Of a stretch of DNA of 54,159 nucleotides, positions 4,072-50,016 are shown one piece after another. A program made the translations under genes and the position numbers. Within the stretch, counting starts at the first letter, position 1; each line of letters starts with the position of its first letter. Origin of the DNA: Gemmobacter megaterium (lineage in GTDB: Bacteria; Pseudomonadota; Alphaproteobacteria; Rhodobacterales; Rhodobacteraceae); NCBI RefSeq assembly GCF_900156815.1, contig NZ_FTOT01000012.1, forward strand, positions 1-54,159. The letters are read 5' to 3'. Under the pieces are notes generated by a model. The model saw only the letters and a list, made by a program, of their open reading frames with translations. It did not search any database and had not been told where the DNA came from.

Positions 4072-5001
4072 CTAACCCGCTATTTCGGCTTCCTGAACGG
4101 GCAGGTGGGTCGCACTGGGCAGGCGCAGGCGCAGACGCTTGATCCGCCGGGGTTCGGCGTCCACCACCTCGATCTGGGCGCCGTTTTCATGCGGGACAAC
4201 CTCTCCCCGCGCAGGAACGCGGCCTGCGCGCAGGTAGACAAGGCCGCCCAGCGTGTCGATGTCCTGATCCTCGTCCGAAACCCGCAGCCGCTGGCCGATG
4301 GCCGCCTCGACCTCATCCAGCGGTGCCATGGCCTGAATCAGCCAGACGCCCGGCTTCTCTTCGGCCCAGAGTGCGGATTCCTCGGTATCATGTTCGTCGG
4401 AGATGTCGCCGACCACGGTTTCCAGCAAGTCCTCGATGGTTACAAGTCCATCGACGCCGCCGTATTCGTCGATCACCAATGCCATATGGACCCGTTCGGT
4501 CTGCATCTTCTGCAACAGGACGGTCAGGGGCATGGAGGGCGGGGCATAGAGCAATGGGCGCAAGAGCTTGCGCAGGCTGAACCTGCCATTCCCGGCGCCG
4601 AACCCATAGGTCAAGGCCAGGTCTTTCAGTGTCACCACGCCCAGAGGATGATCCAGCGATCCCTTGTACACCGGCAGGCGCGAGAAACCGTGTTCGCGGA
4701 ACACCTCGGCAAGTTCGTCGCGCCCGATGGTCACGGGCACTGCCACAATGTCAACTTTGGGAACCGCCACGTCATCGACGCGCAACCGACGCAGGTTGGA
4801 CAGGCCAGGCAGGGAAATGTGAGGAGGATGGCCTGCCGTCGCGGTCGCTGTCGGGGCATGATGTGATGGTGTTCCGCCATCGACGCCATCGGTGGCAGTC
4901 CTGCGGAACAACCTGCTGAAAAGCCCGGCCGATCGTCTCGGGTCGGGTTCGGCTTCTGGCGCGCCCTGCGCTGCCATCAAGCCATCGGTGCTACTGCCCA
5001 T
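4072..5001 (-). CDS. CBS-domain CorC/HlyC family protein
   Basis: The 309-residue protein has a low-complexity Ala/Thr/His-rich N-terminus, a tandem CBS pair at about residues 70-200 (FSRLPVYKGSLDHPLGVV and VIDEYGGVDGLVTIEDLLE), and a C-terminal CorC_HlyC FAD-type domain from about 215. It lacks the DUF21 membrane domain, so it is the soluble CorC/YbeX type linked to magnesium/cobalt export or ribosome biology. The order phoH-ybeY-corC is a common bacterial arrangement and supports the call. A terminator-like hairpin at the ybeY stop suggests it also has its own promoter. Confidence 0.88.
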   Translation of the reverse strand: MGSSTDGLMAAQGAPEAEPDPRRSAGLFSRLFRRTATDGVDGGTPSHHAPTATATAGHPPHISLPGLSNLRRLRVDDVAVPKVDIVAVPVTIGRDELAEVFREHGFSRLPVYKGSLDHPLGVVTLKDLALTYGFGAGNGRFSLRKLLRPLLYAPPSMPLTVLLQKMQTERVHMALVIDEYGGVDGLVTIEDLLETVVGDISDEHDTEESALWAEEKPGVWLIQAMAPLDEVEAAIGQRLRVSDEDQDIDTLGGLVYLRAGRVPARGEVVPHENGAQIEVVDAEPRRIKRLRLRLPSATHLPVQEAEIAG

Positions 5002-5015
5002 CGGTCCTTTCCGAA

Positions 5016-5041
5016 AAACCGGCGCTTGCGCGCGCCGGTTT
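5016..5041 (-). terminator. Terminator at the ybeY stop
   Basis: Read on the minus strand, a 10-bp stem AAACCGGCGC / GCGCCGGTTT with a 6-nt loop is followed by further T residues. It overlaps the last base of the ybeY stop codon and lies just before the CorC start at 5001. Confidence 0.7.
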
Positions 5042-5556
5042 CAATATGGGTTGCCGATGCCCAGTCTGGCAAGGGCGCGAATCTCGATTCCCTCCATCAG
5101 TGCCGCGTCTTCGTCGGTTTCATGGTCATAGCCCAACAGATGCAAGACGCCATGGGCGACCAGATGGGTCACATGATGGTCAAAAGCCTTGCCATGCTCC
5201 AGCGCCTCGGCCTGACATACCCCCCAGGCGATGGCGATATCGCCCAGTTCCTCCGGGTCGTCCGAATCGCCGGGTTCGGGCCTCTCGGGCACGCCGCCCG
5301 CCGTGTCTGGCGCGCGCTCCTCCGATGGCCAGGACAGCACGTTGGTGGGTTTGGGCTTGCCACGGAAATCGGCGTTGAGCGCGGCGATGCGCATATCGTC
5401 GCAGCCCATGACGCTGATCAGGTAGCCCTCGGCGGACATGCCAAGTTCGGCCAGTACGGCCTGTGCCGCGCGTTCGGCGATATCTTCAAGCCCCGCCGTT
5501 TCCCAGCGGGGCTCTTCGATCACGATGTCAACCAGCTTCTCCATCGGCGCGCTCAT
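5041..5556 (-). CDS. ybeY: Endoribonuclease YbeY (rRNA maturation)
   Basis: YbeY is a single-strand endoribonuclease that matures 16S rRNA and takes part in ribosome quality control. The zinc motif H135-x3-H139-x5-H145 in HGVLHLLGYDH is intact. The chosen ATG 5556 (MSAPMEKL) follows a GAGG and gives 171 residues; ATG 5544 (MEKL) is an alternative, and the further open frame to 5658 runs antiparallel to nothing but lies inside phoH. The start overlaps the end of phoH by 29 nt, so the pair is probably coupled. Confidence 0.92.
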   Translation of the reverse strand: MSAPMEKLVDIVIEEPRWETAGLEDIAERAAQAVLAELGMSAEGYLISVMGCDDMRIAALNADFRGKPKPTNVLSWPSEERAPDTAGGVPERPEPGDSDDPEELGDIAIAWGVCQAEALEHGKAFDHHVTHLVAHGVLHLLGYDHETDEDAALMEGIEIRALARLGIGNPY

Positions 5557-6598
5557 ACGCCTCGATGACGCGGGCCACAAGCGGGTGACGCACCACATCC
5601 TTCGAGTCGAAGTAATTGAAGCTGACGCCCTTGACCCCTTTGAGAATCCGCTCGGCATCGGCCAGTCCGCTGGCGGTGCCGCGTGGCAAATCCACCTGGG
5701 TGCGGTCGCCGGTGATCACCATGCGGCTACCCTCGCCCAGACGGGTAAGGAACATCTTCATCTGCATGGTGGTGGCGTTCTGCGCCTCGTCCAGGACGAC
5801 GAAGGCATTGGACAACGTGCGCCCGCGCATGAAAGCCAGCGGCGCGATCTCGATCCGCTTGTCGAGCATCAGCTTTTCCACCTGCTTGGCGGGCAGGAAG
5901 TCGTTCAGCGCATCATAGAGCGGCTGCATGTAGGGATCGACTTTCTCCTTCATGTCGCCCGGCAGAAAGCCAAGCCGCTCGCCCGCCTCGACAGCCGGAC
6001 GGGACAGGATGATCTTTTCCACCTGCCCACCGATCAGCATGGTCACACCGACGGCCACCGCCAGATAGGTCTTGCCAGTGCCGGCCGGACCGATCCCGAA
6101 GGCCAGTTCATGCTTGAACAGGTTCGCGACATAGGCCTTTTGCGCCTCGGTCCTGGGTTCGACCGGCTTTTTGCGGGTCCGCAGTTCAAACCCGGCGGCG
6201 TTGAACATCTCCAACTGGTCATCGCTGCGCACCGGCGCCGCGATGCCGCCGACCCCCAGTCGCAGCGCGCCATCGATATCCCCGGCGCCGATGGTTCTGC
6301 CCTGTTCCAGCCGGGCATACAGCCCTTGCAAGACGGCCGCCGCCTGTGTTCGGGCCTGCGCATCGCCCACCACTGCCAACCTGTTGCCGCGACGCAGGAT
6401 ATGCACGCCTGTCGCCTGTTCGATCCGGGCAAGGTTGCGGTCATATTCGCCGCAAAGCCCGATCAGCAGCCGGTTGTCGGGAAATTCCAGAACCGTTTCG
6501 ACCGTATCGTCGGAGCGGGGCGGGGGGGTCAGCGCGCTGATGCCCAAGCGTGTCTCCTTGTCGTCGTCGAGTTTGTCGTCGTCAGGGGTGCCAGTCAT
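5528..6598 (-). CDS. phoH: PhoH family ATPase
   Basis: The 356-residue protein has a KH-like N-terminal region and a PhoH P-loop ATPase domain. The Walker A motif is GPAGTGKT (residues 170-177), and the Walker B-type VVLDEAQN is followed by ITGDRTQVDLP. PhoH/YbeZ works with YbeY in rRNA metabolism, and the overlap with ybeY here fits that. ATG 6598 is preferred because the upstream in-frame 42 codons do not resemble the family. Confidence 0.93.
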   Translation of the reverse strand: MTGTPDDDKLDDDKETRLGISALTPPPRSDDTVETVLEFPDNRLLIGLCGEYDRNLARIEQATGVHILRRGNRLAVVGDAQARTQAAAVLQGLYARLEQGRTIGAGDIDGALRLGVGGIAAPVRSDDQLEMFNAAGFELRTRKKPVEPRTEAQKAYVANLFKHELAFGIGPAGTGKTYLAVAVGVTMLIGGQVEKIILSRPAVEAGERLGFLPGDMKEKVDPYMQPLYDALNDFLPAKQVEKLMLDKRIEIAPLAFMRGRTLSNAFVVLDEAQNATTMQMKMFLTRLGEGSRMVITGDRTQVDLPRGTASGLADAERILKGVKGVSFNYFDSKDVVRHPLVARVIEAYERADGEAG

Positions 6599-14139: not shown

Positions 14140-14216
14140 CGGGGCGTAGCGCAGCCTGGTAGCGCGACGGTTTTGGGTACCGTAGGTCGAGAGTTCGAAT
14201 CCCTCCGCCCCGACCA
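14140..14216 (+). tRNA. tRNA-Pro (anticodon TGG)
   Basis: The 77-nt sequence folds as a full cloverleaf. The acceptor arm is CGGGGCG / CGCCCCG with discriminator A and an encoded CCA. The D arm contains AGCGCAGCCTGGTAGCGC. The anticodon stem ACGGT/ACCGT carries loop TTTGGGT with anticodon TGG, and the T arm contains GTTCGAATC. The integrase gene stops 20 nt beyond the 3' end, which is the usual geometry of phage integration into a tRNA gene. Confidence 0.98.
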
Positions 14217-14235
14217 ATACTTAGCAGGTTTCGAC
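14190..14235. other. Presumed left attachment site (attL) at tRNA-Pro 3' end
   Basis: The tyrosine integrase is encoded head-on against the tRNA and ends 20 nt from it, so the crossover core is expected in the T arm/acceptor end. The exact core cannot be defined because I found no second copy of the tRNA 3' end near the right side of the prophage. This is inferred from layout only. Confidence 0.4.
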
Positions 14236-15333
14236 CTATCCGGTTTGCACCGCAGTTTGCACTTTCGTTCTGGATTCGGCCTCTTGCAGTTTTGCGGCCA
14301 GGCCGTCGGTCATCTCCGGTGATAGTGCGACATATCGTTCAATCACCTCTGCCGCGTGCTTGATCGACCAGCCCATGTGGGTGGCGATCTCGCGCAGTTC
14401 GGCCCCGGCTTGGAACAGTCTGGTGGCTGCGGTGCCGCGCGCATCATAGAGCCGCAGTTCGGATCGCAGCCCCAGCTTGTCACGCCACGTGCTGACCGCG
14501 TCTCCCAGGTAGTTCTCGTGCTGATAGGGCTGTCCGCCCTTGTTGGTGATGATGGCGCGCTGATCGGCTGGTGTGCTGTCGATCAGCGCGGCCATGCGCG
14601 GTGTCACGGGAATAGAGGCAATGCGCCGCTTGGCCTTGCCCTTGGATGTCCAGACGACGATGCGACGGCCAGTCGGCGTCGGGTGGATATGCTCGCGCGC
14701 TAGCTTGGCCAGATCGCCGGGCCGGAGGCCGGTTTCGGTGGCGGCAATCAGGATGCGCCCGACATGGGGCGGCGCCCCTGCCACAAATGTCTCGATGTCG
14801 GCCGCCAGCCAGAACACCTCGGCGCGGGTGGCCTTGTAGGTCGATTTGATACCCATCAGGCGGTGCTGCATCAGGAGCCCGCGATCCAGCGACCAGCCGA
14901 CGATCCGTTGCAGGTGGCGAATGCGGTCATCGCCCACCTTGCCGCCGATCCCGTCTCTCCAGTCCAGCACTCGCTTGCGGATGCGCGGATCATCGAACGC
15001 CCGGATCGGGGCATCACCGAATTTGACGTCTATCCCGTTTTTCGGATGGTTGATGGATGTGCGCATGTCTGACTGGGTGCGCGGTGCCAGCCCGCGAAAC
15101 TCCTGGCTGGCAAGAAAGCCAAGGATCGCCTCGCGGAACTTGCCTTTTGCGGCCTGCCCCTTCGGCGCGGCCTCGGCCAGCGCGGCGACATACTCCGGCG
15201 ATCCGATCAGGATATTGCTGTCGCTGCGCCAGAAGCATGGGGCGCCCTTGCCGCGCCACGCATAGTGCATCTCGATCACACTGCCGTCTGACAGGCGTTT
15301 GCGGATCTTGTTGATGCCGCGCAGATTAACCAT
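14236..15333 (-). CDS. Prophage tyrosine integrase
   Basis: This 365-residue tyrosine recombinase should catalyse integration into, and excision from, tRNA-Pro. The catalytic Arg is R204 in TETGLRPGD, the beta-strand Lys lies in SKGKAKRR (about 230-237), box II is YDARG with R299 but Tyr296 in place of the usual His, the third His/Trp position is W322 in HMGWS, and the nucleophile is Y334 in VIERY. ATG 15333 is chosen because it overlaps the upstream small gene by 8 nt; a longer frame to 15429 looks non-coding. It is the last gene of the leftward operon. Confidence 0.93.
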
Positions 15334-15511
15334 CGTCACGCCCGAACCATGCCTCCACCTCGTCGGCCGGTTTCTCTGGGGTGGATTCCGGCAGGATTCG
15401 TATCGTGCCAGACTGTGTGATGATTTCAATCACCGCGCGCGGGTCTGCTGCGCGCGCAGCCGCGACGGCAGCGGAGATCTGCTTTCCCGTGAAAGTGGCG
15501 CGCTTGCCCAT
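15326..15511 (-). CDS. Small phage protein, unknown
   Basis: The 61-residue protein is basic at the N-terminus (MGKRATFTGKQISAAVAAA) and acidic at the C-terminus ([11 protein letters not shown]). Position just before the integrase, with an 8-nt overlap, would suit an excisionase or an integrase-associated DNA-binding protein, but I see no clear winged-helix or AlpA-like motif, so it stays unassigned. Confidence 0.7.
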   Translation of the reverse strand: MGKRATFTGKQISAAVAAARAADPRAVIEIITQSGTIRILPESTPEKPADEVEAWFGRDDG

Positions 15512-39695: not shown

Positions 39696-40108
39696 TGAGT
39701 CCACTCTATGCCGAGTTGAACCGCTGGCTGGCGCTGCGCCACGCCTGGGGCAGCGCCGATTGCATCACCCTGCCAGCCGATTGGGTGCTGCGGATGCGCG
39801 GGGTCGATCCTGCCGAGGATATCCGCCTGACCTATGAGTCTGCCTCCGAGGCGCAGCGCGTCTGGCGGTTTTTCTCGCATCCGCTGGAGGCAGTGGCCCC
39901 CCGGATGCAGCGCGCGGGGCTGGCGCTGACCAGCGCCCCGGTGGCCGGGGATGTCGGCGTGCTGCTGCTGCCGCTGGATGGGATGCTGCGCCCGCATGGC
40001 GGACTGTGCCTGGGCCGGGATTGGGCGGTCAAGATGGCGGATGGCGGCGTGGCCAACGGGCCGCCGGTCAAGGTTCTGGGCGCCTGGGGGGTGGGCTATC
40101 ATGCGTAG
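39692..40108 (+). CDS. DUF6950/NlpC-P60-like tail tip hydrolase
   Basis: The 138-residue protein carries the catalytic pattern GSADCITLPADW (Cys near residue 25) and a His in MLRPHGGLCLG (about 103), as in NlpC/P60-type cysteine peptidases at the tail tip (lambda gpK position). It should cut cell-wall peptides during DNA entry. It overlaps genes on both sides. Confidence 0.78.
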   Translation: MMSPLYAELNRWLALRHAWGSADCITLPADWVLRMRGVDPAEDIRLTYESASEAQRVWRFFSHPLEAVAPRMQRAGLALTSAPVAGDVGVLLLPLDGMLRPHGGLCLGRDWAVKMADGGVANGPPVKVLGAWGVGYHA

Positions 40109-42287
40109 ATGGATCCTGGCGGCGCTGCTGTCCACCACCTGCCTGTGCACGCCCAGCCAGGCCAAGGCGGGGCCGATTGCGCCGTTTTTGCAGGGCATCT
40201 GGGTAGGGCTGACCACGGGGGTCGGGGCGGCAGCTGGGATCGGTGGTGCCTTTGCGACGGGAATGAGCGCAGGCGCCTGGCTGGTGGGCGGGACATTCCT
40301 GTCGCGCATCGTGGTTTCGGTCGGGCTGTCGCTGCTGTCACAGGCGCTGATGCCCAAGCCCAAGATGCCGCCGCCGCCCGAGATCATGACGAACTACGCG
40401 CAGGACGTGGCTTTCGTCGAATGGGCCTATGGCCGGGTGCGCAAGGGCGGGCCGATGGCCCTGTCGGCCTATTCCGCGGTGCCGGTGGTCAATCCCGGCG
40501 GGTCGGATGCCAAGGGCAAGCGCCACTATGGCGTGCTGATCGCCTGCCATTCCACGCGCGGGCCGGTGGTGCATTACCTGGACAAGCGCGAGGTGGAGCT
40601 GGACGCGGGCGGCTTTGTCACCACCGATCCGATCCGCTGGCCCGAAGGGTCGCATCCCGGCGTCTGGCACGGTCAGGTGCGGCCCTATACCGGCCAGCCG
40701 GGGCAGGCCGCCGATCCGGTCTGGCAGGCCGCATTCCCCGAAGTGGGGGCCAGCGACAATTTCGCGGGCCTGTCCTATGCGGGCCTCTACGCGGCGCGCT
40801 GCGCGACAGAGCTGTTTTCGCAGATTTATTCCAATGGCAGGGAATGGGCTTATGCGCCGGTCTGGGATGGCTGCGATACGGTCTATGATCCGCGCACCGA
40901 CAGCACCGACTGGACCGACAATGCCGCGCTGATCATCGCCGATATCGCCACCCGCATCTACGGCAAGCAGGTGGATTGGGCCGAGGTGGCAGCCGAGGCC
41001 GATATCTGCGACCAGCCGGTCACCAACCGCGACGGTGGCACGCAAAAACGCTGGACGATCAACACCGTGATCCGCGCGGATATGACCTGGGAACAGGCGC
41101 GCGCGCATCTCCAAATGTGCTGCGATGCGTGGTTTTACGAGCGGTCGGACGGCAAGCTGGGGTTCAAGGTTGGCGATTATCAGGAGCCGGACCTGATCCT
41201 GACAGCGGCGGATTTTGTCAGCCTGACGGTCAAGCACAAGGCCACCGATCCTGATGCCGTGGGCAGCTACGCCCTGCGCTATGTCGAACCGGCGCGGGAC
41301 TGGAACGAAGAGGTGTCGGGGGCGGTCATCGTCAACCCCGATCCGACGGCACCACGGGCGGAAGAAGAATGTTTCGGGATCGACAGCCACAATCAGGCGT
41401 GGCGCGTGATCCGTCGCTGGGCGGCCACGGCCCAGCCGGAATGGTCGATCACCGGCACCCTGAAATATATCGGGCGCCAGGTGATGGGGCGGCGTTTCGT
41501 GCGCATCCAGCACGCCGAACTGGGGCTGGATTGCCGCTGCGAGGTGGGTCTGCTGGCCCGCAATGGCGGATCGCATACCTGGCAGATTCAGGCGGTTTCG
41601 GTCGAGCCAGAGGATTTTACGCCGGATGCCCTGGCGCTGGAGCCGCCGCGCACGCTGCGCGCCTCGGTGGCCGAGGATGGCACGGTGCCCGCGCCTGCCA
41701 GCCTGTCGGGTCAGGTGGTCGAGGGCACCGGCGGTGTCGCGCTGATCGACTGGACCTGGCCTGCCCAGACCGAGGATCTGCGCCAGCAGCTGCGCGTCCG
41801 GTCACCGGATGCCGGTTTGCCGGATTGGCAGATCGTCGATATCCCCGGCGGGCAGGGCAATCTGCTGTCCTCTGGACTGATCGACGGCGCGGAATATGAG
41901 GCGCAGCTGCGCAACCGCACCAATGCCGGGCGGCTGTCGGTCTGGGTGCCCGAGGCGCCCGTGGTGGTGCAGGCGGTGGCCAATACCGACCCGCCCCCTG
42001 CGGTCGAGGATTTTGCCGCCACGGTGGCCGGGTCGACCGTCGTGGTGGGCTGGACCGCGCCCAATAGCCCCCGCTATGTCGCCGCCCGCATCTATCGCGC
42101 GGCGGGCGCGGGGGCCGTCTTTGGCGACGCATCGGTGGTGCGGCTGGAATTCGGCGCCGCCTCGCTGGCGGATAGCTGGACTGACCCCGGCCCAGGTGTC
42201 GGGGCGCATCGCTACTGGATAGAGCCGATCAACGGATCGGGTATCGGCGGGCCGGTCAGCGGCCCCCAAACCATCACACTCATCTGA
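40101..42287 (+). CDS. Tail tip / host specificity protein (J-like)
   Basis: The 728-residue protein is a central tip attachment protein. It has conserved NYAQDVAFVEWAYGRVRKGG, GVLIACHSTRGPVVHYLDKR and LQMCCDAWFYERSDGKLGFK, as in lambda J-type proteins, and one or two fibronectin-III-like domains near the C-terminus (residues about 535-725). Unusually, the N-terminus reads like a signal peptide (MRRWILAALLSTTCLCTPSQ) followed by a hydrophobic Gly/Ala segment; this may instead be a tail-channel or membrane-active part. Confidence 0.85.
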   Translation: MRRWILAALLSTTCLCTPSQAKAGPIAPFLQGIWVGLTTGVGAAAGIGGAFATGMSAGAWLVGGTFLSRIVVSVGLSLLSQALMPKPKMPPPPEIMTNYAQDVAFVEWAYGRVRKGGPMALSAYSAVPVVNPGGSDAKGKRHYGVLIACHSTRGPVVHYLDKREVELDAGGFVTTDPIRWPEGSHPGVWHGQVRPYTGQPGQAADPVWQAAFPEVGASDNFAGLSYAGLYAARCATELFSQIYSNGREWAYAPVWDGCDTVYDPRTDSTDWTDNAALIIADIATRIYGKQVDWAEVAAEADICDQPVTNRDGGTQKRWTINTVIRADMTWEQARAHLQMCCDAWFYERSDGKLGFKVGDYQEPDLILTAADFVSLTVKHKATDPDAVGSYALRYVEPARDWNEEVSGAVIVNPDPTAPRAEEECFGIDSHNQAWRVIRRWAATAQPEWSITGTLKYIGRQVMGRRFVRIQHAELGLDCRCEVGLLARNGGSHTWQIQAVSVEPEDFTPDALALEPPRTLRASVAEDGTVPAPASLSGQVVEGTGGVALIDWTWPAQTEDLRQQLRVRSPDAGLPDWQIVDIPGGQGNLLSSGLIDGAEYEAQLRNRTNAGRLSVWVPEAPVVVQAVANTDPPPAVEDFAATVAGSTVVVGWTAPNSPRYVAARIYRAAGAGAVFGDASVVRLEFGAASLADSWTDPGPGVGAHRYWIEPINGSGIGGPVSGPQTITLI

Positions 42288-42297
42288 GAGGCACCCC

Positions 42298-45200
42298 ATG
42301 CCGATGCTGTTGACCCGGATCACCGGCCCCGTTGACCTGCCCAATGGCGAGACGCCGCGCCACGGGCGGGTGCATTTCCAGCTGCGTGACTGGGACCGGA
42401 CGGGCGATCACCTGATCATGCCGCGCGAGGTGGTGGCGCAGCTGGATGCCATGGGCTGGCTGGACGTGCGGTTGCAGACCACCACGACGCTGGACCGTGG
42501 GTCGATCTACGATGTGGCGGTGCAATATTGGTCGGTCGCGCTGGGGCGGCAGATCGTGGTGCAGCTGCCCGGTATCGCCGTGCCCGCCTCTGGCCCCGTC
42601 ACCCTGGCCAGCCTGTTGGCGATCCCGGCCCCGGTGCCGGATGTGCCCGATGCGCTGGCACAGGCCATTGCGGCCAAGGCGGCGGCCGAGGCGGCGGCGG
42701 TGTCGGCGGCGGCCTCGGCCACCTTCGCGGGTGGGGCAGCGGATATGACCAAGGGGCGCCGGACGCGCCTGCGCGCGATTGTGACCGGCGACTGGCAGCC
42801 AAAGATCGGTGATCCGCTGATGCCGCCGGGGCAGGAGAACAGTCAGTTCGGGATTCTGGAGCGGGTGCTGGACAGCATGGGTGCGCAACTGCCCGCCGCC
42901 GATCTGATGTTGCACGTCGGCGATATCGGCCAGCGTCTGGCCTGTTCCACGACAAATATCACCACGATTCGTGCGGCCGGGCTGGATCCCGATGAGGTGT
43001 TGCAACCGGGCGACCCCTACCCTTGGGGTATGGGGCGGGTGCTGCCCGAGGTCTGGGGCCGTGCGCGGATCAGCCTGGATCGTTTTTTCGCGGTGGCGGG
43101 CAACCACGACGTCTCGGGTCGGGGTGGCAAGACGAACCCACGCGCCTGGATGTTCGACGATTTCCGCGAAGTCTTTGGCCGGTCCACCTATGCGATGACG
43201 ATTGGTCGTCTGGGTTTCATGTTCATGAGCACCGAATCCGGCGGCGTAGGAGGGCAGATCCCGCGTGATGCGGTGGATTACGCCGACCGGGTGATGCGGG
43301 CGCATCCCTATCATTTCTGGCACATCGTGATCCACCAGCCCCCGGTGGGCTATGGGCCAGAACCGAATTCCGAAACCCGCGATCCTGTCACGGTGCCCTC
43401 GGCGGCGGCCACGTCCTGGGCCGGGGGCGGGCAGCCGCTGGTGACGGTGGGCGCCTATGCCTATGGGTCAGAGGCTGCGACGCAGGTGTTTCTGGGGGAA
43501 GTCGAGGACGGCGTTTTGCTGACCTACGGGGTGGACTATGCCTATGCCGACGATGCCGGCGCTCCGCCCGAGGATGACACTCTGCCGCCCGAGGGCGAAG
43601 AAGGGGCCGACGACGACACGCCAGAGCCTGCCCCGCCGTATACCGATATCCGGCTGTTGCAGACCTGGCAGCACGGGCCGATCACCGATGAGACTGTGCT
43701 GCAATTGCGTATCGCCTATGTCAAGGCGGCGCTGGATTTCCACAGCACGCAACTGGTGCTGGGAACGCCATCGGACCCCGGCCTGATCCGTCGCCATGCG
43801 GACCGGATTTTCGCGGTGTTCTACGGGCACACCGGGATCATCAATAGCTATGACCAGACCCCGACGCGGTATGACGCCGATCTTGATCTTTGGTGGGTCT
43901 GCAACAACATGGCAATTCCGCGCTGCGCCCGCGCGGGGATCGACGGCACCGACAATCCGCTGATCTGGTCGGTCGCGGATTGGGATACGGACAGCAGCAC
44001 CCTGACCTTTCGGCGCTGGAATGCCACCGCAGATGAGGTGGGCGGCGAATGGGTCGGGGCCTGGCTGTCGGACACCCACCCCGGCCTGATGTGCGATTTC
44101 CAGATCACCTATCCCGGTCAGCTGGACCTGGGTGACGGGCGGGTGACGTTCGACGGGCGGCGCCAGCAGCTGACCGATATGGACGCGCGGCACATCCTGA
44201 TCCGCCGCGATATCGACGAGGCGCCGGGCCGCCGCACGCCGGGCGCCCCGGATGAGGCGGGCTGGCCGACCTTTGACCGCGAGGGCGGCAGCAGCCTGGA
44301 AATCGCCCGGCTGGTCCTGGAAGATAAGGCGCTGAATGGCATCGTCGCTGGCGACGGGATGCATACCAGCGTGTCGCTGGCGCGTGGGGCCACATCCTCG
44401 CTGGGCGGTCGCGTTGCCTGGCAGCGCGATGCGACGCGCGAGGTGATGCAGGCCGGATATGAGCACGCGACCGGATCGGACGGCACGCCGCGCGCCCGCG
44501 CCTGGTGGTCGGCGGTGGACGTGGCCGGGGTCTGGCGCCGCGTGTTCGAGATCGACGGCGACACGGGCCGGATCCGCGCGCCGGGGGGCGTCGAGGGGCC
44601 GCTGGAAATCTCTGTTCCCGCGATCAGCATCGACGATGCGCCGGTTGCACCGCAGGCTGGCCTCAAGCTCGACTGGCGCGAGGGCGGCCAGAACCTGGGC
44701 GCGGGCGAGGGTGTGAGCGTAGAATGGACTGTCACATTGCTGGACGATCCGGCCCCGGTGCCGGTAGGCCGCATAGCGATGCGCAAGGTCAACGCCCTGG
44801 ACGCCAGCCGATTGTCAGAGCTGGCGTTCCAACTGTCCGAGGATGGCGCGGCGGTGCCGCGCGACGTGCTGGTGGTCGACCCGGTCACGGGGCGGTTCAC
44901 CGGGCCGGGCATTACCCAGACCTCGACCGACGCCACCGCTGGGCGGCTGAGCAAGGCGGGCGATTATGGATGGGGCGCGCTGGCCACCGCACCGGCCAAT
45001 ATCGGCAGCTGGTTGCGCACCGATGCGCCCAGCGGGGTCTATGTCTTTGGCGCGACCACGACGGATCAGACCGATATGCCGCCCGGCTATTCGTCGGGCA
45101 ACTTCGGCACCGTCGTGGTCGAGCGATTCAGCCCGACGTTCTTCACCCTGCGTGCCATGCGGGCGGGTGCGGCCAATCCGCCAGAAACCTGGACCCGGCG

Positions 45201-45660
45201 CTACATGAACGGCACCTGGGGCACGTGGCACCAGGTGCGCAACACCGCCAATACGACGGTGGACAGCAACGGGTTCGTCAAGGCCGCGTCCCCAATCGCC
45301 CGCGTGGGCGGCGGGGTGGACCCCGATCAGGGCTTTGCCGCGGCGGGCGATGGTGCGGTCAATGCGATGGCGGCGGGCGTGACGATCACGCGGGTGGGGC
45401 TGGGGGTCTATATGCTGGGCGGCAGCCACGGCCTCGCGCAGAGCGGCTGGCAGATCGAGGTGCCGCGCGATCACAATGGCAATCGTCTGGTGCATGTGGC
45501 CACGACCTGGGCGGATGGCGTGCTGATCGTCACCCTGACCGCCCCTGTCTGGGATGATGGGCTGTGGATCGCGGGCGATCCGATGGACGCGCCCGGCGGC
45601 CGCTGGGTCGATGTGCGTCTGCACCAGCCCGAGCCAGAGCCGGAGACCGAGCCGGACTAG
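42298..45660 (+). CDS. Tail fibre with metallophosphoesterase-like domain
   Basis: The 1120-residue protein has an N-terminal attachment part (1-145, ending in an Ala-rich helix) and a calcineurin-like phosphoesterase core at about 155-530. The core motifs are VTGDWQ (D165), HVGDIG (D209), AGNHD (N269-H270-D271), VIHQPP (H345) and YGHTG (H511). Motif I has Gln167 instead of the usual His, and motif V lacks the second His. An acidic linker lies at 415-450. The C-terminal third has a pyocin-knob-like repeat (SKAGDYGWGALATAPANIGS) and a fibre tip. It may hydrolyse surface phosphodiesters. Confidence 0.82.
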   Translation: MPMLLTRITGPVDLPNGETPRHGRVHFQLRDWDRTGDHLIMPREVVAQLDAMGWLDVRLQTTTTLDRGSIYDVAVQYWSVALGRQIVVQLPGIAVPASGPVTLASLLAIPAPVPDVPDALAQAIAAKAAAEAAAVSAAASATFAGGAADMTKGRRTRLRAIVTGDWQPKIGDPLMPPGQENSQFGILERVLDSMGAQLPAADLMLHVGDIGQRLACSTTNITTIRAAGLDPDEVLQPGDPYPWGMGRVLPEVWGRARISLDRFFAVAGNHDVSGRGGKTNPRAWMFDDFREVFGRSTYAMTIGRLGFMFMSTESGGVGGQIPRDAVDYADRVMRAHPYHFWHIVIHQPPVGYGPEPNSETRDPVTVPSAAATSWAGGGQPLVTVGAYAYGSEAATQVFLGEVEDGVLLTYGVDYAYADDAGAPPEDDTLPPEGEEGADDDTPEPAPPYTDIRLLQTWQHGPITDETVLQLRIAYVKAALDFHSTQLVLGTPSDPGLIRRHADRIFAVFYGHTGIINSYDQTPTRYDADLDLWWVCNNMAIPRCARAGIDGTDNPLIWSVADWDTDSSTLTFRRWNATADEVGGEWVGAWLSDTHPGLMCDFQITYPGQLDLGDGRVTFDGRRQQLTDMDARHILIRRDIDEAPGRRTPGAPDEAGWPTFDREGGSSLEIARLVLEDKALNGIVAGDGMHTSVSLARGATSSLGGRVAWQRDATREVMQAGYEHATGSDGTPRARAWWSAVDVAGVWRRVFEIDGDTGRIRAPGGVEGPLEISVPAISIDDAPVAPQAGLKLDWREGGQNLGAGEGVSVEWTVTLLDDPAPVPVGRIAMRKVNALDASRLSELAFQLSEDGAAVPRDVLVVDPVTGRFTGPGITQTSTDATAGRLSKAGDYGWGALATAPANIGSWLRTDAPSGVYVFGATTTDQTDMPPGYSSGNFGTVVVERFSPTFFTLRAMRAGAANPPETWTRRYMNGTWGTWHQVRNTANTTVDSNGFVKAASPIARVGGGVDPDQGFAAAGDGAVNAMAAGVTITRVGLGVYMLGGSHGLAQSGWQIEVPRDHNGNRLVHVATTWADGVLIVTLTAPVWDDGLWIAGDPMDAPGGRWVDVRLHQPEPEPETEPD

Positions 45661-45709
45661 GCCCCGGTGGCTGACCAAATCCCGACACGACATCTGCGCA
45701 GGAGTGACC

Positions 45710-46033
45710 ATGGCCGACCTACCGCCCGATCCGGGCCTGATCGAGACAATCAACCGGGCCATCGGTGGCGCGGCCACCGCGCTGATCGCGGGCTTTGCGG
45801 GCCGGGCGATGTATCACGCGGGCGAAGTGCGCGCCAAGCGCCGTCCGATCCTGTCGTGGGATCTGCTATGGGAGGCGCCTCTGGTCCTCGGCATGGCGAT
45901 GATTGGCGACAGCGTCGGTGTCTACTTCGCTTTCCCGCGCGAGGTGACAGTCGGGCTGATCGCATTTCTTGCCTACCTCGGCCCGCGTGGGGCCGGGGCG
46001 GCGCTGGAACGCTGGGCCAGCCGCAAGGGCTGA
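45710..46033 (+). CDS. LydA-like phage holin
   Basis: The 107-residue membrane protein has a Gly/Ala-rich first helix (ETINRAIGGAATALIAGFAG), a basic turn (RAKRRPI), and two further helices (APLVLGMAMIGDSVGVYFAF and GLIAFLAYLGPRGAG). This is the LydA/holin superfamily III pattern. GCAGGAG precedes ATG 45710. It should permeabilise the inner membrane for lysis. The endolysin gene lies 4.3 kb downstream, which is an unusually wide separation. Confidence 0.8.
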   Translation: MADLPPDPGLIETINRAIGGAATALIAGFAGRAMYHAGEVRAKRRPILSWDLLWEAPLVLGMAMIGDSVGVYFAFPREVTVGLIAFLAYLGPRGAGAALERWASRKG

Positions 46034-46075: not shown

Positions 46076-46345
46076 ATGCCCCCCATTGACATGTTTACCT
46101 ATAGCGCCACGGCGCTTGCGGACCCGGCCAGCGCCGCGCTGGCGATCACCCCGTCCGACGGCAGTGATCTGCTGATGGTGCCCCGTGCGCTGTATTGCAC
46201 CGGCGCTGGCACGGTGCAGGTCACGATGCGCGCCGGTGGCGATCCGGTCATCCTGCCGATGCTGGTGGGCACGCCCTTGCCGGTGCGCGTGACGCGGGTC
46301 TGGGCAACGGGCACCACCGCCACCGGAATTGTTGGGGTCTGGTGA
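46076..46345 (+). CDS. Small phage structural protein
   Basis: The 89-residue protein (ALAITPSDGSDLLMVPRALY, VTMRAGGDPVILPMLVGTPL, RVWATGTTATGIVGVW) is of a beta-rich type commonly found next to phage tail-fibre genes, possibly a trimeric spike or adaptor. AGGAGCCTGAG precedes the start, and the stop overlaps the next gene by one base. Confidence 0.72.
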   Translation: MPPIDMFTYSATALADPASAALAITPSDGSDLLMVPRALYCTGAGTVQVTMRAGGDPVILPMLVGTPLPVRVTRVWATGTTATGIVGVW

Positions 46346-49300
46346 TGTTTGGCCTTGGGTTCGGATTGGCAGCCGTCGCGCTGCACGCGGGTGGTACGCC
46401 CCCGGTGATCACCGGCACCGGCCCGGTGCTGGCGGCGCTGTACGCAGGTGACAGGCTTGGTGATGCCGTGACCTGGGGCAGCTATCACCCCGTCGATTCC
46501 TCCACCGTGCGGCAGATGCGGCTGGACGCTGGGGAATGGGTGGCCTTTGACGGTGATACTCTGGTGCAGGACGGCGAGAGCTGGCAGGTGCGCGAGCTGG
46601 TCAGCCTGGGCGAGGTCGAGGTGATCTATGCCACCCTGCCGCGCGTGGTCGAGGCTGTGGTGACAGAGCCGACGGAACCAACCGAACCCACGGAGCCAAC
46701 GGAACCCACAGAGCCGACCGAGCCAACCGAACCCACGGAACCAACGGAACCGACAGAGCCGACCGAACCAACCGAGCCGGTGCCTGCCGCAGCGCCGGTC
46801 TATGCCGATGAGATCACGGTGGCCGGGATCAGCTTTACCTTCTGGGATGCCGCGACGGGGGGCAATCAGATCGAGGTGCCGGTCTATTGGGACGCCTTGG
46901 GCGATCTGCCGGTGATCGGCACGCATGACAGCGATATCTATGTGCAGGATGGCACGCCGTCCGAGCTGATCGCCCACGCCAACCCCAGCTATTCCAGCGG
47001 CAGCACGGTGGATGCGGCATTCCCGGCCCTGACATGGGCGCATGGGATGATGCGCGACGCTGATCTGCGCGGCAGCCAGATCGTCAACCCTTTCGGTGAC
47101 CGGGTGCAGGCGTTGGACCAGTTGCTGTCCGGGGCCGCCAGTGCCCAGACCAGTGGCCGGTCGCGGTATGTCCACGGGCTGAATGTCTCGGTCGGGGCAA
47201 CCGGCGTGCGGGTCAAGATCGACCAAGACGATACCGCCTCGCTGATCAAGTCGGTGCGGCGCAGCGATATTGACCACCCGTCCAGTGGATCGGGCTGGCA
47301 GTTGTTCCTGGAGCCGCCTGCGGTGCTGTCCTTTGTGCCGACCGCCCCGCCCGAGGGCTTTTTCGCACCGTGCCCGACACGCGGGCTGGGCGAGATCAAG
47401 GGGCACGAGGCGGCGGTCAATCTGGGAGTGCTGCGCAATCTGGCGCCCGTGGGCACCTTCAGCAAGGCCGACGCGGAAACCCGCACCCAGCCTTGGCGGC
47501 TGCACAATGGCTGGGGTGGCGATGCGCTGTCGAGGATCCAGACCGTCTACGAATCCACCGGCACCCGCTATGCCTCGTACTACGGCATCGAATTCGCGCG
47601 GGCGGGGCTGTGGCTGCACACCGATCAATCGGCGGTGGACAAGCGGCTGACTGCCCTGCGCAAGATCCGGCAGGGGCTGTGGATGCTGGCCGAGCTGGAG
47701 ATGGGCTATCGGCTGGGCGCGGGCGCGGGCCAGAATCACGGCTATTGGCCGGATATGATGCTGGCGGCATTCGCGCTGGGGCGGCAGGATTGGCTGGACC
47801 TGATCGACAGCCAGCTGCGCACTGGCGCGCTGCAACAGCCGTTCTGGCGGACCGAGGCGGCGGTGGGCTACCCCGTGGCCTGGGAAAGCCCCACTTCTCT
47901 GCGGCAGAAACAGTATATCCCGGTGCGGCCGGAAACCGTCGGCACCGCCTGGCTGTGCCAGCAGCTGGGGCAGGGGCGCAATTCGGCCTATTCCGACAAT
48001 GAACAGCAGGGCTATCTGCCGATGACCAGCCATCCCGGCGCGCTGGAGACGCTGTTCGTGGGCCTGCTGCAAAACGGCCCCGGCGGTCAGACCGGCGTGG
48101 ATGCGATATTGCGCGGTGGGCCGCTGGACCCGACCAATGACCGGGCCGCCAAGATCGCCTATTTCGACCATTTCGCGGCCATCAGCCTGGCCAATGACTG
48201 GGAGGCATCGACCGGCGCGCTGTCCGGCTATGGGTCGCAATTCTGGGCCGCGCATCGCAATGCCATGCCCGCGGCGGTCTATCCCCATGTGCCGGCGGAA
48301 ATCGTCGTGCCATCTGTCACGGGCGGAACGCGGTCCTTCAGCTATGATTTCCAGGGCAAGGACAAATCCGCCTGGCCGATCACCCGCCGCGATCTGCGGT
48401 TCTCCTTGGATCAGGTGCAGTATGTGCAGGTCGATGATGTCGCGGCCAGCGGATCGGTCAGCGGCCTGATCGCCGCGCCGCATTATGTGCAGCTGCGCCA
48501 GCACAATGAGCATGGCCCCGGCCCTTGGTCCAGCCATCAGCGTTTCACGACCCAGACCGAGGCGGCGCCGCGTGGCTATGCCAATGTCACCGGCGCCGTG
48601 ACCAATGCCCAGCCGGAATTCGCTGTGGCGCCGCGCATGATGGTCAAGCGGATGCCCGCCGCCGCCTTCCCCGACTATGTCGAGGCGCCCGAGGTGTTGT
48701 CGGTGGCCAATATCACGCTCTATGCCGGGGTGGGCTATCAGGCCGCCACGGTGCACCCGGCCCCGAGCTACACATTCCAGTGGATGCTCGATGGCGAGGA
48801 TATTCCGGGGGCGGTGGGTGCCAGCTATAACGTCACGATCCCTGATCTGGCGGAGGGCCTGAGCTACCGTGTGATCGCCGACAATGGGGTCGGCACGCCT
48901 GCCGTGGCGGTCAGCCAGACGGTGACGGTGTTCAGCGCACCGACGGTCCCGGATGAGGTCATATTCGACAGCCGCATGGGCAATGATCTGGCGCTGTTCT
49001 GGCCAGAGCAATACGGGACCATCGTCGTCAACAATGCCACCGCCCAGGTGCAGGGCAACCTGTCGCCGGATTGGGACCGGCTGGCTGACGATGTGGATCC
49101 CGGCGATTTCACCCCCGCCACGACCAGCGCCGGGGCGCTGGTGGGGATCAAGAGCGGGTCCAACCCGCGCCTCGATATCCGCCTGACCGGGGACAGCAAG
49201 AAGCTGACCGCTGGCCGCAAATACCTGCTGCGGCTGGGCATCGGATCGTCCATGTCCAAGGATAACGTGGATTCCGAGCTGGTGCGGATCGAGGTGCTCG

Positions 49301-50016
49301 TGGGCAAGACGGTCGGCGCCTCCGATGTGGTGGCGCCCTATGTGATCGACCCCAACCCAACCCGCCGGGTGGAAAATCTGGCCTTTGGCATCGACGTGGC
49401 GCCGGGCGAGACCAGTCTGGACCTGTGGTTGCGGGCGCGCATTCCAACCCCGGCGGCAGGCACCGGCGGGCTGAATATCGAGATCTTTGACATCAGCCTG
49501 ATCGAGGTCGAGGATTACGACGATGACCTGACCGCCGTCTATCCGCCGCCGCTGCCCGCGCCAGAGGTGGTCTATAGCCTCAATCCGGCTGGCTGGACCC
49601 TGACGGATTGCGCCTTTGATGGCGAGGGGCGGCTGGTGATCGGCCCGCAGGTCGGCGGCCAGACTTCGCGCGCGACGCTGGTCATTCCGGGGCTGGATCC
49701 GCTGCGGCAATACCGGGTCACGCTGACTGTCACCCGCGTGACCGGATCGTCGGGCGCCTCGGCGCTGGTCCGGCGCCTGGGGCGCGGGGCCTATACCTCG
49801 CCGCTGTTCGGAGAGATCGCGGCCTCGTCGCAGCTCTATTACGACACCAACCTTCCGGGTGGGTCCGGGTCGAGCACGATCACCGAAACCTTCCGGCTGG
49901 CCGAACGGCCCGATCTGGTGGACGAGACCAACCTGCAACTCTACCTCCAGCACACCGGCGGCACGCCCACCACGACGCAGCACCGGATCGACGCGCTGAC
50001 GGTAGAGGCGCTGTAG
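46345..50016 (+). CDS. Giant fibre/depolymerase-like tail protein
   Basis: The 1223-residue protein has a short N-terminal domain (1-105), a Thr-Glu-Pro linker (107-145) and a large central region (about 150-640). That region has helix-rich segments such as WRLHNGWGGDALSRIQTVYE and GAGQNHGYWPDMMLAAFALG, which look like an alpha/alpha-toroid glycan-active enzyme, though no catalytic motif can be named. Ig/fibronectin-like modules follow (690-870), then two beta-sandwich carbohydrate-binding-like domains at the C-terminus. It is probably a second receptor-binding or capsule-degrading protein. Confidence 0.72.
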   Translation: MFGLGFGLAAVALHAGGTPPVITGTGPVLAALYAGDRLGDAVTWGSYHPVDSSTVRQMRLDAGEWVAFDGDTLVQDGESWQVRELVSLGEVEVIYATLPRVVEAVVTEPTEPTEPTEPTEPTEPTEPTEPTEPTEPTEPTEPTEPVPAAAPVYADEITVAGISFTFWDAATGGNQIEVPVYWDALGDLPVIGTHDSDIYVQDGTPSELIAHANPSYSSGSTVDAAFPALTWAHGMMRDADLRGSQIVNPFGDRVQALDQLLSGAASAQTSGRSRYVHGLNVSVGATGVRVKIDQDDTASLIKSVRRSDIDHPSSGSGWQLFLEPPAVLSFVPTAPPEGFFAPCPTRGLGEIKGHEAAVNLGVLRNLAPVGTFSKADAETRTQPWRLHNGWGGDALSRIQTVYESTGTRYASYYGIEFARAGLWLHTDQSAVDKRLTALRKIRQGLWMLAELEMGYRLGAGAGQNHGYWPDMMLAAFALGRQDWLDLIDSQLRTGALQQPFWRTEAAVGYPVAWESPTSLRQKQYIPVRPETVGTAWLCQQLGQGRNSAYSDNEQQGYLPMTSHPGALETLFVGLLQNGPGGQTGVDAILRGGPLDPTNDRAAKIAYFDHFAAISLANDWEASTGALSGYGSQFWAAHRNAMPAAVYPHVPAEIVVPSVTGGTRSFSYDFQGKDKSAWPITRRDLRFSLDQVQYVQVDDVAASGSVSGLIAAPHYVQLRQHNEHGPGPWSSHQRFTTQTEAAPRGYANVTGAVTNAQPEFAVAPRMMVKRMPAAAFPDYVEAPEVLSVANITLYAGVGYQAATVHPAPSYTFQWMLDGEDIPGAVGASYNVTIPDLAEGLSYRVIADNGVGTPAVAVSQTVTVFSAPTVPDEVIFDSRMGNDLALFWPEQYGTIVVNNATAQVQGNLSPDWDRLADDVDPGDFTPATTSAGALVGIKSGSNPRLDIRLTGDSKKLTAGRKYLLRLGIGSSMSKDNVDSELVRIEVLVGKTVGASDVVAPYVIDPNPTRRVENLAFGIDVAPGETSLDLWLRARIPTPAAGTGGLNIEIFDISLIEVEDYDDDLTAVYPPPLPAPEVVYSLNPAGWTLTDCAFDGEGRLVIGPQVGGQTSRATLVIPGLDPLRQYRVTLTVTRVTGSSGASALVRRLGRGAYTSPLFGEIAASSQLYYDTNLPGGSGSSTITETFRLAERPDLVDETNLQLYLQHTGGTPTTTQHRIDALTVEAL
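46663..46779 (+). repeat. Thirteen tandem Thr-Glu-Pro codon repeats
   Basis: Thirteen 9-nt units each encode Thr-Glu-Pro. The codons vary (ACA/ACG/ACC, GAG/GAA, CCG/CCA/CCC), so the DNA repeat is imperfect while the protein repeat is exact. This indicates selection on the protein as a stiff, acidic spacer and limits slippage. Confidence 0.95.

Follow-up and report, generated by a model that had tools for sequence, protein, structure and literature searches.

A metallophosphoesterase-type domain with altered metal ligands in a prophage tail fibre of Gemmobacter megaterium

Calcineurin-like domains in phage structural proteins

Phosphoesterase-type domains have been annotated in phage structural proteins before. 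BFVD includes a virion protein of Enterococcus phage Idefix that carries a calcineurin-like phosphoesterase domain, and the Idefix record names IDF_19 a 'putative virion protein with calcineurin-like phosphoesterase domain'; the word 'phosphoesterase' is absent from the main text of the Idefix paper as available to us (PMC6356687; the papers cited here by PMC number were available in part, and what we take from them refers to those parts). IDF_19 has relatives in 63 phage records, with 47/63 matching over at least 80% of its length. Among the best 40 of the 63 matches, some cover the N-terminal part only, and the hosts are mostly Enterococcus and Lactobacillus. Relatives in the family phrog_7158 are annotated 'putative collar fiber protein', 'minor capsid protein' and 'tail protein'. 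The proteins of Idefix, 1E1, Bassarid, phig1e and D2SVT, which we inspected, all have DxH in motif I and GHxH in motif V (5/5). A phosphoesterase in a phage structural protein is therefore not new in itself, and we rejected the idea that it is. As a side observation, D2SVT is recorded with Acinetobacter baumannii as host, and its tail-region protein (4419-6203 of locus L069) is 28% identical to Gram-positive virion phosphoesterases; this host label may deserve a check.

The prophage and its fibre gene

We analyzed the whole 54,159-base contig NZ_FTOT01000012.1 of Gemmobacter megaterium (the window). An IMG/VR provirus corresponds to 14236-51102 of the window, the limits being computed from the place of the match within the provirus contig. 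The element encodes terminase subunits, portal, head maturation protease, major tail protein, tape measure and endolysin, together with a distal tail protein, a J-like protein and a holin recognized by Pfam or PHROG profile matches (holin: 45554..46033, forward strand; PF16083, E = 2.3e-9; phrog_126), and is a temperate siphovirus-like prophage. Its integrase (14236..15429, reverse strand; phrog_1, E = 9.4e-24) lies beside a tRNA-Pro found by ARAGORN (14140-14216), and the pair (14140-15429) likely marks the attachment site; no direct repeat of at least 18 bases involving the tRNA-Pro is among the repeats listed for 14100-54159.

The fibre gene (42298..45660, forward strand) starts with ATG and encodes 1120 residues in an open frame with 69/53/82% GC at codon positions 1/2/3. 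It directly follows the J-like gene, as the sequence-only reading had stated: the upstream frame (39951..42287, forward strand, start codon provisional) matches phrog_5616 tail fiber protein (E = 3.5e-100) and phrog_31 central tail fiber J (E = 1.9e-12). The fibre itself matches seven PHROG families, four annotated as tail fiber protein and three as unknown, and no NCBIfam family. The proposed fusion of a fibre with a metallophosphoesterase-type domain was borne out, since PF00149 and PF25670 both match within this one frame. Gene order and fibre domains make it probable that the product is a virion protein.

The N-terminal adaptor (about residues 1-112; 42298..42633, forward strand) is recognized by matches to phage proteins: residues 4-103 match p56 of Paracoccus phage Pben1 at 39%, a protein annotated as putative holin and encoded between two tail fibre genes, and residues 1-71 match Rhodobacter phage RcapNL, also at 39%. 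Because the relatives of the adaptor occur in a Paracoccus phage and in RcapNL, the phage likely has a host akin to Paracoccus or Rhodobacter. An Ala-rich linker follows, with limits set by eye (about residues 118-148; 42649..42741, forward strand), and then the metallophosphoesterase-type domain including its insertion, with approximate limits from profile and alignment (about residues 155-606; 42760..44115, forward strand). PF00149 matches the fibre with 24.9 bits (E = 3.1e-5), above its curated cut-off of 21.5 bits, so the HMM search proposed as a check came out positive; the match spans only residues 159-304, that is, motifs I-III. A profile built with the window left out (23 sequences: 21 cellular phosphoesterases, a fibre from a Paracoccus prophage and a cellular relative, both described below) extends the coverage to residues 157-359 at 37 bits and aligns H346 with the His of motif IV.

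Between motifs IV and V, alignments reveal an insertion of about 120 residues (approximately 43363..43737, forward strand), which is without counterpart in the Paracoccus fibre and has pLDDT below 50 over most of its length. Inside it lies an acidic Pro-rich stretch of 25 residues (423-447; 43564-43638), likewise without a Paracoccus counterpart. The region after the domain (44116..44910, forward strand) is partly common to the two fibres, which are joined there by BLASTP segments 502-688 and 788-870. The C-terminal fibre domain PF25670 (residues 985-1111; 45250..45630, forward strand) scores 82 bits against a 27-bit cut-off (E = 5.3e-23) and is related to the solved entry 7z47 'Putative tail fiber' (E = 2.7e-8); it was the only part matched when the whole fibre was searched against solved-structure sequences.

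The metallophosphoesterase-type domain is thus flanked by the adaptor and the shaft and is away from the C-terminal tip. This position suits a spacer, which would hold the shaft off the tail or aid fibre folding and would neither bind nor cut a host molecule. A spacer would have no need for conserved site residues, yet those of the domain are conserved across two fibres in which about 70% of positions are different (see below), and we regard this explanation as improbable.

Further downstream, a 1273-aa frame (46195-50016, forward strand) contains a TEP repeat with a 9-base period. Around residues 857-911 it weakly resembles Hoc (E = 0.0017), and Pfam does not match it. A search of solved-structure sequences with 46837-48200 returned no match, nor did megablast of 46345-48500 against phage records. 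The product could be a second adhesin or depolymerase; an antisense 1294-aa frame overlaps it.

Metal ligands and predicted fold

Five calcineurin-type motifs lie in order on the forward strand: motif I, D165-W-Q167, with Gln replacing His (42790..42798); motif II, D209, the metal-bridging Asp by homology with LpxH (42922..42924); motif III, N269-H270-D271 (43102..43110); motif IV, H346 (43333..43335); and motif V, G510-H511-T512-G513, with Gly replacing the last His and a register to be taken with caution (43825..43836). Motifs II-IV were assigned from sequence and profile, motifs I and V from the sequence. The sequence-only reading had placed D165, Q167, D209, N269-H270-D271 and H511 correctly, and both Gln167 and GHTG were confirmed in the translated frame; its motif IV His, put at residue 345, is an Ile there.

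The C-terminal half of the domain, after the insertion, gives a weak profile match (3.8 bits), in which a two-sequence profile of relatives sets GH on GH. MAFFT and BLASTP place window TGII on Paracoccus SGHI, three residues off this register. In the predicted models a strand ends at H511 in the window domain and just before GH in the Paracoccus domain (strand limits read by eye in low-confidence models). The alignments thus leave motif V less certain than motifs I-IV.

In LpxH, the ligands of Mn1 are Asp8, His10, Asp41 and His197, and those of Mn2 are Asp41, Asn79, His114 and His195; the H10N variant, changed at the His of motif I, no longer bound Mn1 and yielded no captured product (PMC5016852). 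Mapped onto LpxH, the changes at Q167 and G513 both fall on metal site 1, and the ligands of site 2 and the GNH histidine are kept; of the three ligands that serve metal 1 alone, two are replaced, and all three that serve metal 2 alone are present (H511 subject to the cautious register). This one-sided loss and the LpxH H10N result would be expected of a retired enzyme, which still grips a surface group that carries phosphate, possibly through a single metal, without hydrolyzing it, and serves as a receptor-binding module. The intact GHxH and DxH of the other phages' structural proteins (5/5 inspected) point the same way. We regard such a module as a real possibility, though less likely than not.

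Narrower published signatures do not describe the window fibre. It has GHTG where the class III phosphodiesterase signature, D-(X)n-GD-(X)n-GNH[E/D]-(X)n-H-(X)n-GHXH in the text available, has GHxH; it has GDWQP and GDIGQR in place of the PPP signatures GDxHG and GDxVDRG (PMC8366450); and it keeps D209, the bridging Asp that is changed to Asn in VPS29 (PMC3101248). The superfamily signature, DX[H/X]..GDXX[D/X]..GNH[D/E]..[G/X]H..GHX[H/X], lets both positions vary at which the sequence-only reading had seen differing ligands (PMC3407115), and we rejected the two changed ligands as proof of inactivity. This loose signature is found in order in the window fibre as GDWQ, GDIGQ, GNHD, H346 and GHTG (the last with its cautious register). 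In PPP enzymes metal 1 is held by Asp-His-Asp, and these enzymes are active. Since the signature permits any residue at both positions and PPP enzymes are active, the ligand changes, as read from the alignment, weaken site 1 without settling activity. Within the same superfamily, SpdA hydrolyzes 2',3'-cAMP without detectable metal (PMC4222275).

AlphaFold2 models were built on two sequences, the window domain (mean pLDDT = 49.3) and the Paracoccus domain (mean pLDDT = 56.8), both of low confidence. With Foldseek against solved structures, the low-confidence window model has four matches at E <= 0.001: the YydD-YydB model, in which YydB is a phosphoesterase, GpdQ, purple acid phosphatase and an Mre11 complex. 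The Paracoccus model, also of low confidence, has 13 such matches, including 2nxf, pig purple acid phosphatase, GpdQ, SMPDL3A and acid sphingomyelinase. Unrelated folds enter the two lists from rank 14 (E = 0.08) and rank 32 (E = 0.11). The sequence-only reading had proposed structure prediction as a check. The best matches of the models have the phosphoesterase fold, and neither result named as refuting, a contrary fold or motifs scattered away from a common site, appeared, at a confidence (mean pLDDT of 49 and 57) too low to place the motif residues at one site. A three-sequence profile searched against solved structures ranked GpdQ (E = 0.16) behind a Kelch protein (E = 0.011), which we took as a chance match, and the other profile searches of solved-structure sequences returned no phosphoesterase. 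Four of the 13 Paracoccus-model matches are Vps29, which counts against an enzyme; it is a non-enzyme of this fold and a precedent for the fold's use as a binding module (PMC3101248).

Relatives of the domain

A tblastn search with the window domain found a Paracoccus denitrificans record that encodes a 769-residue fibre protein, on which PF00149 is stronger than on the window fibre (E = 3.1e-10). NCBIfam on this protein gives SpdA far below threshold (20.6 vs. 400 bits). The two fibres are 27-32% identical, varying with the alignment, and the motif residues D, Q, D, N, H, D, together with the His of motif IV, form invariant columns between them; at a per-site identity of 0.32, identity at seven of seven motif sites has P of about 3e-4, the sites having been picked as motifs. 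The motif V His is common to both only under the GH-on-GH register, and the altered motifs of the Paracoccus fibre are DxQ and GHxA. Kinship of the window domain with phosphoesterases, as first proposed, is upheld by the profile match, this second fibre and the Foldseek matches. The Paracoccus fibre begins with a phrog_1640 tail protein part of the Bordetella phage BPP-1 type, and BLASTP of the first 150 residues of the two fibres returned nothing reliable. Given these unlike adaptors, the domain and its downstream region are carried on different N-termini, so the module has moved between fibres.

Further members were sparse. Among 50,697 phage records, tblastn returned no match to the window domain at E = 0.01 and none to the Paracoccus domain at E = 0.1 or 10. 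IMG/VR returned the window's own contig and a Paracoccus contig only, and none with the cellular relative as query. Plasmid searches returned one and two records, and a genome contig collection gave no match at first and then P. denitrificans DSM 413. We counted the Paracoccus plasmid, IMG/VR and DSM 413 copies as one independent fibre. The same fusion, which the sequence-only reading had proposed to seek in other phages, is thus present in one independent fibre, of a P. denitrificans prophage, and in none of the 50,697 phage records. The literature sampled, in the parts available, contains no fibre-fused calcineurin-like domain.

Overlapping genome sets had matches in 1/195 (own genome), 3/394, 6/390, 3/289 and 1/349 (own genome). 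Among these, L008/L014 and L019 apart, DxQ together with loss of the last His occurs only in the cellular protein L012 (DLQ and GHVM). It starts, in our own reading, with a Tat-like sequence and has cellular neighbours. Since the same ligand set recurs in this protein, the pattern of DxQ and GHx(non-His) is suggested to be functional and not a product of decay within the fibre, and it is independent of service in a fibre. This Tat-like protein (403-2196 of L012 and 8532-10325 of L020, both reverse strand) lies about 4.4 kb from phosphonate-type ABC transporter-like genes with a HAD phosphatase (own reading). Another protein found by similarity, L016, has DTQ and a full GHTH, and the motifs of L013, L015 and L018 were read as full DxH and GHxH sets. 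Going by its frame list, we took L009 for a spurious match, and a Rhizobium jaguaris match proved to be an ordinary full-motif protein.

We also surveyed 43 loci, comprising 30 best-match loci, drawn from the own genome and 19 others, plus another 13 of the own genome, with a pattern that admits only H, Q or G after D-x. They yielded 41 distinct motif sets; five of the 43 loci added none, two of them since their frames were already in L042. Motif I is DxH in 39/41, DxG in 2/41 and DxQ in 0/41. Motif V is GHxH in 29/41, another GHxx in 8/41, and no GH was found in 4/41. The lack of DxQ in this cellular survey, like the intact motifs of the five inspected phage proteins, counts against an enzyme. 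All eight sets with another GHxx have D[IV]HG, and these PPP-like proteins, too, are without the last His, which argues against its loss as a sign of retirement. Moreover, the motif I Gln and the GNH histidine are kept in two diverged fibres and a cellular protein outside a phage, where a site no longer in use would tend to diverge.

Interpretation and comparison with known systems

Weighing these points, we rank action on a phosphate-bearing group first in likelihood, binding alone second and a spacer role last. The first reading, in which the fibre domain acts on a phosphate-bearing surface group through an altered metal center, has in our estimate a probability of roughly 0.5; metal binding, catalysis, substrate and a role in adsorption are what the domain's motifs and setting would predict. 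A metallophosphoesterase-fold domain placed between tail-attachment adaptor and shaft would, from the fibre context, sit at the tail of the virion and meet the cell surface. Its most likely target there is a group in the host envelope that carries phosphate, e.g., a surface-glycan phosphodiester; phosphate polymers and lipid A, named by the sequence-only reading, may be candidates. The reaction would rely on the intact metal site 2 (D209, N269, H346 and H511) and the GNH histidine H270, next to an altered site 1 (D165, Q167 and D209, with no second GHxH His), and turnover may be slow or substrate-narrow. A broader proposal is tentative and, taken whole, rather unlikely: that temperate phages of Paracoccus-like hosts carry a fibre phosphoesterase, of the same stock as the exported cellular family, whose rebuilt Asp-Gln-Asp metal 1 site serves to cleave or remove envelope phosphate at adsorption. 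If that is true, a class of surface-modifying fibre enzymes would stand beside glycosidases, lyases and deacetylases.

If the domain is active, phosphate-ester cleavage would join the reactions carried out by fibres of phages with Gram-negative hosts and would point to a phosphate-bearing receptor. If it is inactive, an enzyme fold would have been recruited as a phage binding module, with the fate of one metal site readable in the sequence. With the same module on two adaptors, either reading can be tested with one small domain.

Idefix IDF_19 and phrog_7158 share with the window fibre a PF00149 domain in a protein of the phage structural block, but belong to mostly Gram-positive hosts and keep DxH and GHxH in the five proteins inspected. 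At E up to 1, phrog_7158 is not among the PHROG matches of the window fibre. An hhalign comparison of the window group with the IDF_19 group gave E = 1.5e-4 and a probability of 51.5%, and with the two fibres only it gave 34 columns and 1.8%. The solved structures of GpdQ and others (2dxl, 3d03, 2nxf and 1ute) share the fold by Foldseek (E = 2.1e-5 to 2.3e-7) and motifs I-IV by profile; however, TM-scores are low (0.30-0.55 of the query) with large rmsd, these proteins are free enzymes by their entry titles, and it is the window and Paracoccus domains that have DxQ and miss the last His. The GDPD domain has another fold than the metallophosphoesterases. GDPD domains of enterococcal phage tail lysins are likewise phosphodiesterases in tail proteins (PMC10194240), but have teichoic acid targets and Gram-positive hosts. 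SGNH-domain fibres (G7C gp63.1 and Klebsiella prophages) resemble the proposed mode of action in that an enzyme neither glycosidase nor lyase modifies host polysaccharide (PMC13123978); they differ in fold and act by deacetylation, and we draw the analogy without claiming kinship. As far as these collections show, what appears to be new here is the fibre fusion with an altered site, carried on two adaptors.
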